Of a DNA stretch of 64,000 nt, positions 5,253 to 51,975 are shown piece by piece. The DNA is from a bacterium (GTDB taxonomy: Bacteria > Oederibacteriota > JAAXVQ01 > JAUVAV01): positions 124,001 through 188,000 of the forward strand of contig JAIORK010000032.1 of NCBI GenBank assembly GCA_021108215.1, in the 5' to 3' direction. The notes below the pieces were generated by a model. The model made no database searches and was not told the DNA's origin. It worked only from the letters and a program-made list of their open reading frames with translations. Each line of letters opens with the position of its first letter. Position 1 is the stretch's first letter. The translations under genes were made by a program, and so were the position numbers.

Positions 5253-5387
5253 ATGCCGGAGAGTCTATGTTTTATTCAGAGGAACACGGAAATTCCCGGG
5301 TTATTTACCCTGGGTATTGCTTGGCAAGTAGTTTTGGTTGGGTCAGTGACACCGCTTCCTCTGAATAAAACATAGACTCTCCGGCAT
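5253..5387. repeat. Long hairpin: perfect 32-bp inverted repeat, 71-base loop
   Basis: Bases 5253-5284 are the exact reverse complement of 5356-5387. The intervening 71 bases hold no convincing gene. The structure sits just after moxR and interrupts the operon. Arms begin ATGCCGGAGAGTCTATG. It could be a miniature inverted-repeat element, a processed RNA hairpin or an RNA-level regulator of downstream genes. There is no T tract after the second arm, so it is not a standard terminator. Confidence 0.85.
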
Positions 5388-13760: not shown

Positions 13761-13772
13761 CTGCAAAATCTT

Positions 13773-13993
13773 ATCCGCAGATTACACAGATTACGCAGAT
13801 TTTAAAGGCAAAGAAATAGTATTAAAAGCCAAAGGAAAAATAGGGTTAAGGCACAATAGAGTCAAAGGTATAAAGCGGAATCAAATTTAAGATATTGAAT
13901 ATATTTTTTAGCAATGAAAAATAGTGAAATTTTTGTGTTTGATTTTAACCCTAATAAAGATTTTAATCTGCGAAATCTGTGTAATCTGTGGAT
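13773..13993. repeat. Inverted pair of CCACAGATTACACAGATT-type repeats
   Basis: Bases 13773-13801 and 13965-13993 are inverted copies (27 of 29 positions agree) of a sequence with core CAGATTACACAGATT. The spacer of about 160 bases is AT-rich and has no gene. The same core occurs inside the giant gene at 40778-40795. The whole interval 13761-14354 has no supported coding region. Confidence 0.82.
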
Positions 13994-14069
13994 AGCGATT
14001 TAAGTGCATGAAAGCCTCTGGATCTCTTGTACTGCAATGCAGTACCGTTTGAAGCACGCGGCGATGACA

Positions 14070-43793: not shown

Positions 43794-43929
43794 TTACCAC
43801 GGAGATCACGGAGCACACGGAGAAAAACAAAAAAAGTAAGGATAAAGATGAAACATTTTTTTAAAACTTTTGCCCTAAAAACATTTATGGCTTTTTCTTT
43901 CTCCGTGTGCTCCGTGATCTCCGTGGTAA
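43794..43929. repeat. Long hairpin: perfect 32-bp CCACGGAG-type inverted repeat, 72-base loop
   Basis: Bases 43794-43825 are exactly complementary to 43898-43929. The arms consist of the CACGGAG unit repeated (ACCACGGAGATCACGGAG). The loop is AT-rich and has no gene. It separates the PorV-like gene and the NHL lipoprotein gene. Confidence 0.9.
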
Positions 43930-44936: not shown

Positions 44937-45109
44937 ACCACGGAGGCGCGGAGAACACGGAGAAAAAAACTTTTTAGGGTAAATACTTAAAGACTTTAAA
45001 GGCTTTTAAAGTTTTTAAAACCTTTAAAGCTTTTTAAAGCTTTAAACCCTATTTGTTTTTCATATTTTTATTTTAAAAGATTTCTCCGTGAGCTCCGTGC
45101 CTCCGTGGT
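44937..45109. repeat. Long hairpin: CCACGGAG-type inverted repeat, 115-base loop
   Basis: Bases 44937-44965 and 45081-45109 are complementary at 26 of 29 positions. The loop is itself an imperfect inverted repeat built on TTTAAAG units (GACTTTAAAGGCTTTTAAAG against its complement). There is no coding sequence, although a frame starting at 45088 reads from the right arm into the next gene. Confidence 0.85.
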
Positions 45110-51708: not shown

Positions 51709-51759
51709 ATCAAGTTTGAAAAACGGTCTTGTCCGAATTAAACTATCCGGAGTTCAATG

Positions 51760-51905
51760 AAATCGTCCGGGGAGGTTGATTTTTACAGGAAAACCGGCAC
51801 GGTGTACACACGCTAGAGCCCGTAATGCCGATTTTGGTCTCGGCTGCCCGACCAGACACTTGGGGTGCGTTTTTTCCTGGAAAAATCAACCTCCCCGGAC
51901 GATTT
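51760..51905. repeat. Long hairpin: 34-bp inverted repeat (one mismatch), 78-base loop
   Basis: Bases 51760-51793 are complementary to 51872-51905 except for one position. Arms begin AAATCGTCCGGGGAGG. The loop has no gene. It lies just before mdh and has nearly the same size and arm length as the hairpins at 5253 and 43794, although the arm sequences differ. Confidence 0.88.
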
Positions 51906-51975
51906 AGCTGCAAGAGCCTGCATTCATTCGGACAGCAGTGTTTGGAAAAGTGAAATGAAAAGGGAGGGTGAAACC

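Follow-up and report, generated by a model that had tools for sequence, protein, structure and literature searches.

A long hairpin at the core of a probable non-autonomous IS4-family element in an Oederibacteriota genome

Results

The window analysed here is a stretch of 64,000 nucleotides from an Oederibacteriota genome (contig JAIORK010000032.1, positions 124,001 to 188,000), and carries three long hairpins at 5253-5387, 43794-43929 and 51760-51905. A repeat search recovered all three, with an arm of 32 bp (100%) for the first, a core of 32 bp (38 nt at 95%) for the second and a core arm of 34 bp (41 nt at 90%) for the third. Positions, arm sizes and loop sizes were all as given in the preliminary description of this DNA, which had also held, correctly, that the arms of the three are mutually unrelated. 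RNA folding of the window hairpins gave z-scores of -8.6 to -13.8 against shuffled sequence. A single ORF of 7174 aa (19917-41441) is also present in the window; its domains, FlgD Ig-like, Big, PA14, NHL and CHU_C (type IX secretion), suggest a giant protein that is surface-located or adhesin-like. For a neighbouring malate dehydrogenase, the nearest named relatives include MAGs of Firestonebacteria and candidate division FCPU426, and the host is probably an uncultured bacterium from around these groups.

Inverted repeats were scanned, as the preliminary description had proposed, in a sample of stretches totalling 1.26 Mb, or 35% of the 3.56-Mb genome. The scan returned 46 repeats of score at least 22, whereas an equally large Markov-1 control had none, even at score 18; the three window hairpins are genuine and exceed chance expectation by far. 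A broad distribution of loop sizes with no mode, which the same description had said would reduce the match in geometry to chance, was not what emerged: loop sizes are sharply peaked, with the mode at 70-79 nt (23 of 46) and 33 of 46 falling between 60 and 89 nt.

The window's three hairpins fall into three different repeat families, called A (5253-5387), B (43794-43929) and C (51760-51905). The family B hairpin is a CCACGGAG-type repeat with core arms of 32 nt and a loop of 72 nt, present in many partial copies; as a blastn query against its own genome it gave many matches, in the arms only. Two looser relatives, absent from the earlier finding, were located in the window by the repeat search: a CAGATTACGCAGATT-type hairpin at 13772-13994 (loop 163) and a second family B hairpin at 44937-45109 (loop 115). 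Yet another family of hairpins, whose loops measure 47-52 nt and whose core reads GAGCTTCCC.AAGGGGGCGAGTTA.GC, occurs elsewhere in the genome (G000:C12:156107-156212 and G000:C36:73011-73105).

The family A hairpin (plus strand) has arms at 5253-5284 and 5356-5387 and a loop of 71 nt, the arms being the element's own ends. Used as a blastn query it found one weak relative in its own genome, while a covariance model and alignment placed the family at 39 sites, all in this genome (G000); the models for families A and C were scored with stricter filters, so that remote members of both may be missed in their counts. Ends resembling IS4-type terminal inverted repeats (TIRs) were seen at 3 of 78 family A ends, against 1 in shuffles, and family A is not claimed as an IS4-family MITE. 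At least three family A copies stand in doublets of opposite orientation with a conserved spacer. Opposed doublets or a triplet, with spacers of about 31-35 bp, were noted at L242, L245 and L258 (G000:C32:190291-190757), G000:C55:69234-69531 and G000:C29:6719-7016.

The family C hairpin at 51760-51905 consists of two 34-nt arms (51760-51793 and 51872-51905, plus strand) around a conserved 78-nt loop (51794-51871, CACGCTAGAGCC ... GGGGTGCGTT). It lies within a putative 217-bp element at 51724-51940 (plus strand), which has IS4-type ends at a fixed distance from the stem and contains no transposase. The left TIR, CGGTCTTGTCCGAATTA (51724-51740, plus strand), matches the TIR pattern at 14 of 17 positions, and the right one, CACTGCTGTCCGAATGA (51924-51940, minus strand), at 15 of 17. 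Directly outside them are the two copies of a 9-bp target site duplication, TTTGAAAAA at 51715-51723 and TTTGGAAAA at 51941-51949, with one mismatch between them. Across the family the stem measures 30-34 bp, the loop about 78 nt and the whole element 209-272 bp, mostly 212-217; the 17-bp TIRs (consensus CACTGCTGTCCAAATTA) are found 24-26 nt outside the stem on both sides. Of 92 family C ends, 49 match the TIR pattern at 14 or more of its 17 positions; shuffled flanks gave 2. Beyond the TIRs are direct repeats of 9 bp, which match exactly in TATTAGACT and ATTGTAAAA and, when shifted by one base, also in GTATAATAA. Two deletion derivatives, L074 and L085, have kept the ends and lost most of the hairpin. 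A coding loop was rejected, since loop lengths shift by single bases (76-80) and reading frames would break.

With blastn, the 51760 element has more than 20 relatives in its own genome, and the covariance model places family C at about 40 sites there. The model also finds it at six places in G002, which belongs to another genus of the same taxonomic family, and in none of the remaining 43 phylum genomes, so that two of 28 genera carry it. A GTDB-wide scan for the exact pattern of the loop gave zero matches.

While the loop is conserved, the arms of family C vary between copies yet remain complementary. Both sides have changed in some copy at 22 of 29 stem pairs, and double-changed cells number 134, compared with 41.0 (sd 5.4) after shuffling and 11-18 when the partners are slid. 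Selection on an RNA strand should leave mainly G-U mismatches and few A-C. The family C arms contain 47 G-U and 50 A-C mismatches (25-43 and 25-46 when related copies are collapsed), with no excess of G-U over A-C on one strand; because the two are even, no RNA selection is visible on family C. In family A, in the orientation used, the raw counts are 19 G-U and 63 A-C, with p from 0.05 to 0.0003 according to how related copies were collapsed, and this A-C richness equals G-U richness on the other strand. Some members of family A were collected with a model that takes structure into account, and this should not introduce a strand bias. Apart from this asymmetry, nothing in the data hints at selection on an RNA; an RNA role is possible for family A, on the strand carrying CCAAGCAGCA.

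Polarity analysis showed that in 4 of the 31 copies that could be classified the family C loop runs opposite to the outer shell and flanks, with no conflicts. The window copy is one of these four; alignments to three relatives show its loop inverted against the outer flanks, and relatives of opposite polarity are present in both G000 and G002. Most copies lie 3' of a gene, in the same sense: relative to the loop orientation, both neighbouring genes, as called from simple ORFs, point leftward in 22 copies and rightward in 5 (p 0.0015).

All six genomes of the taxonomic family show enrichment of the TIR motif, among them the own genome (34 against 6 in the control), and it is strongest in G003 (41 against 5). 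Other interiors in G003 are also bounded by these TIRs and flanked by exact duplications. G003, of a third, sister genus, contains an intact 1270-bp element (L320:123-1392; G003:C173:123-1392), whose TIRs, CATAGCTGTCCAAATTA and CACATGTGTCCAAATTA, match at 17 of 17 positions and are flanked on both sides by an exact 9-bp duplication, AAGAAATAT. Its 387-aa ORF scores 277 bits to the IS4 equivalog NF033592 (cut-off 115) and carries PF01609 and PF14294. A YREK motif (YKDRWQIEIFFKTLK), the defining feature of IS4, was read from the sequence as Y-KD-R-WQI-E-IFFKTL-K and, together with the DDE transposase domain (PF01609, and NF033592 above its cut-off), identifies the element as a member of the IS4 family. 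The 17-bp TIR consensus is common to this element and the family C copies. Hairpins of the CAGATTACGC type were also observed inside the same IS4-type TIRs (L079, L081, L305 and L318), a class found in the window at 13772-13994. At L288:1499-1835, a TIR-bounded miniature element is nested within another, each with its own 9-bp duplication.

A profile search found no PF01609 (DDE_Tnp_1) gene in the own genome, nor was an autonomous element with family C ends found there. A transposase adjoining the solo TIRs was also sought there, and only host genes were found.

Discussion

In this study we focus on the hairpin at 51760-51905, which is likely the core of a non-autonomous IS4-family MITE, with a transposase supplied in trans, a proposed correction of the arms by template switching, and a geometry shared with the other two hairpins through separate families. 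With no transposase inside its 217 bp and about 40 places in the genome, family C has the make-up of a MITE, and its 9-bp duplications, exact or nearly so in several copies, lie within the 8-13 bp known for the IS4 family (8-10 for IS4Sa; PMC2266710). The mobilising enzyme is likely to be of the class encoded by IS4-family elements of the L320 type. We infer mobilisation in trans across genera, because no autonomous element bearing these ends was found in the own genome. The source of the transposase in G000 may be lost, unassembled or divergent, and loss is probable because this genome has no DDE_Tnp_1 gene.

An IS4-type transposase would have spread family C by acting on its TIRs in trans, and was probably lost from this genome. 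The stem would fold during replication so that one arm is templated by the other, and such template switching would homogenise the arms and occasionally invert the loop. Template switching at inverted repeats is known to give both arm homogenisation and spacer inversion (PMC8604942), and the presence of the two in family C suggests that it acted here; the hairpin core is unusual and apparently self-correcting. The earlier suggestion of a mechanism that makes inverted copies came close for family C, given its TIRs, its 9-bp duplications and arms that look homogenised. Selection for an intact stem in active source copies may also act and, followed by neutral decay, would give the same paired differences and the same even G-U/A-C ratio; the loop flips are the part that it leaves unexplained. 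Because the copies are old, correction after insertion and correction in active source copies are indistinguishable in family C.

The orientation bias of 22 against 5 speaks against the MITE reading, since random insertion of a pure parasite would leave no such bias unless selection removed one orientation. The bias may come from a preference at insertion or from selection, within operons, against copies in the opposite direction. The state of the ends also speaks against this reading, as only about half of them (49 of 92) still reach 14/17.

An unlikely variant is that long hairpins are modules repeatedly captured by different IS4-type TIR pairs, their stem and loop sizes being kept because the fold aids the element, as a transcribed RNA in family A and as folded DNA in family C. 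The family C, CAGATTACGC and CACGAAG hairpin types all lie inside the same IS4-type TIRs.

It is rather improbable that the hairpin is a structured RNA, either a sense 3'-UTR element or a small RNA, whose compensatory changes record selection on the RNA fold. The covariation of family C is strong, as this explanation would have it, its copies lie mostly 3' of genes in one orientation, and family A mismatches are G-U biased on one strand. However, one-strand selection should not give G-U and A-C mismatches in nearly equal numbers, the family C loop flips relative to its flanks, and the family is limited to two genera of the phylum. Moreover, Rfam gave no match at gathering score within the window, and the weaker matches obtained under permissive settings were plant miRNA foldbacks. 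Selection for an RNA of a set size, the other origin suggested in the preliminary description, is therefore not borne out for 51760-51905, and is possible for family A.

Equally doubtful is a single size rule, in which a host process makes or keeps unrelated inverted repeats of about 32 bp in the arms and about 75 nt in the loop. The loop peak at 70-79 nt fits such a rule, as do several repeats that belong to neither A nor C and have loops of 66-96 nt and arms of 32-34, but some of these may be distantly related to A or C. In the 1.14 Mb of stretches that had not been picked for known copies, A and C, each a family of homologous repeats, account for 60% (21 of 35) of the repeats whose loops measure 40-130 nt, while class B/E loops are broad, at 67-364 nt. 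Homology between the A and C loops was not accepted (shuffle p 0.085). The architecture shared across unrelated sequences thus holds as to size but follows no single rule, A and C being separate families of fixed length; the equal geometry comes mostly from these two abundant families plus chance, and because the three hairpins belong to distinct families, no common RNA is needed to account for it.

It is very improbable that the stem is a transposition signal of the REP/RAYT or IS200/IS605 kind, which a Y1 (HUH) transposase would recognise when folded as single-stranded DNA: the arms are variable but paired, the genome has six Y1_Tnp matches and the opposed family A doublets resemble BIMEs, but none of the six Y1 genes is flanked by such hairpins (GTAG-type REPs alone flank one), stems of 30-34 bp far exceed those of REPs (5-13 bp, with loops of 2-20 nt; PMC3733652), and family C bears DDE-type TIRs and 9-bp duplications. 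An ordinary REP/RAYT system is present in the same genome, where a Y1 transposase gene has GTAG-tagged REPs (GTAGGGAACGGT..) next to it (L154; G000:C45:96948-97286).

Covarying stems are usually taken as proof of a functional RNA. Family C combines strong covariation with loop inversions and shows no RNA strand signature, which suggests that template switching, or selection on the fold of a mobile DNA, may mimic RNA covariation. Comparing G-U with A-C mismatches is a cheap way to tell covariation at the DNA level from that of RNA, and multi-copy families such as these offer natural material for measuring, in bacteria, how arms are corrected and spacers inverted.

Among known systems, family C is closest in description to IS4-family MITEs, as it shares its TIRs with an IS4 element, has a 9-bp duplication, is short, contains no ORF and occurs in many dispersed intergenic copies. 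It differs in its interior, where a stem of 30-34 bp encloses a conserved loop of 78 nt whose orientation is inverted in some copies, and in having the TIRs outside the stem. ERIC/RU-type enterobacterial repeats, of about 127 bp, are also large intergenic palindromes, a likeness of description; the arms are conserved in sequence in ERIC, unlike those of the hairpins here. REP, BIME and REPIN elements, tagged GTAG or CGTC, are likewise intergenic palindromes in many copies, and the closely spaced opposed doublets of family A recall BIMEs, but the hairpins here have stems and loops several times longer and flank no RAYT gene. The G003 element resembles IS4Sa (PMC2266710) in its 1270 bp, 5'-CA ends, 9-bp duplication, YREK motif and DDE domain, its placement there being by size, ends and duplication only. 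Finally, the template-switch correction of quasipalindromes (PMC8604942) yields the same arm homogenisation and spacer inversion as in family C; it was described for short repeats with very short spacers, whereas family C has 32-bp arms and a 78-nt loop inside a transposon.
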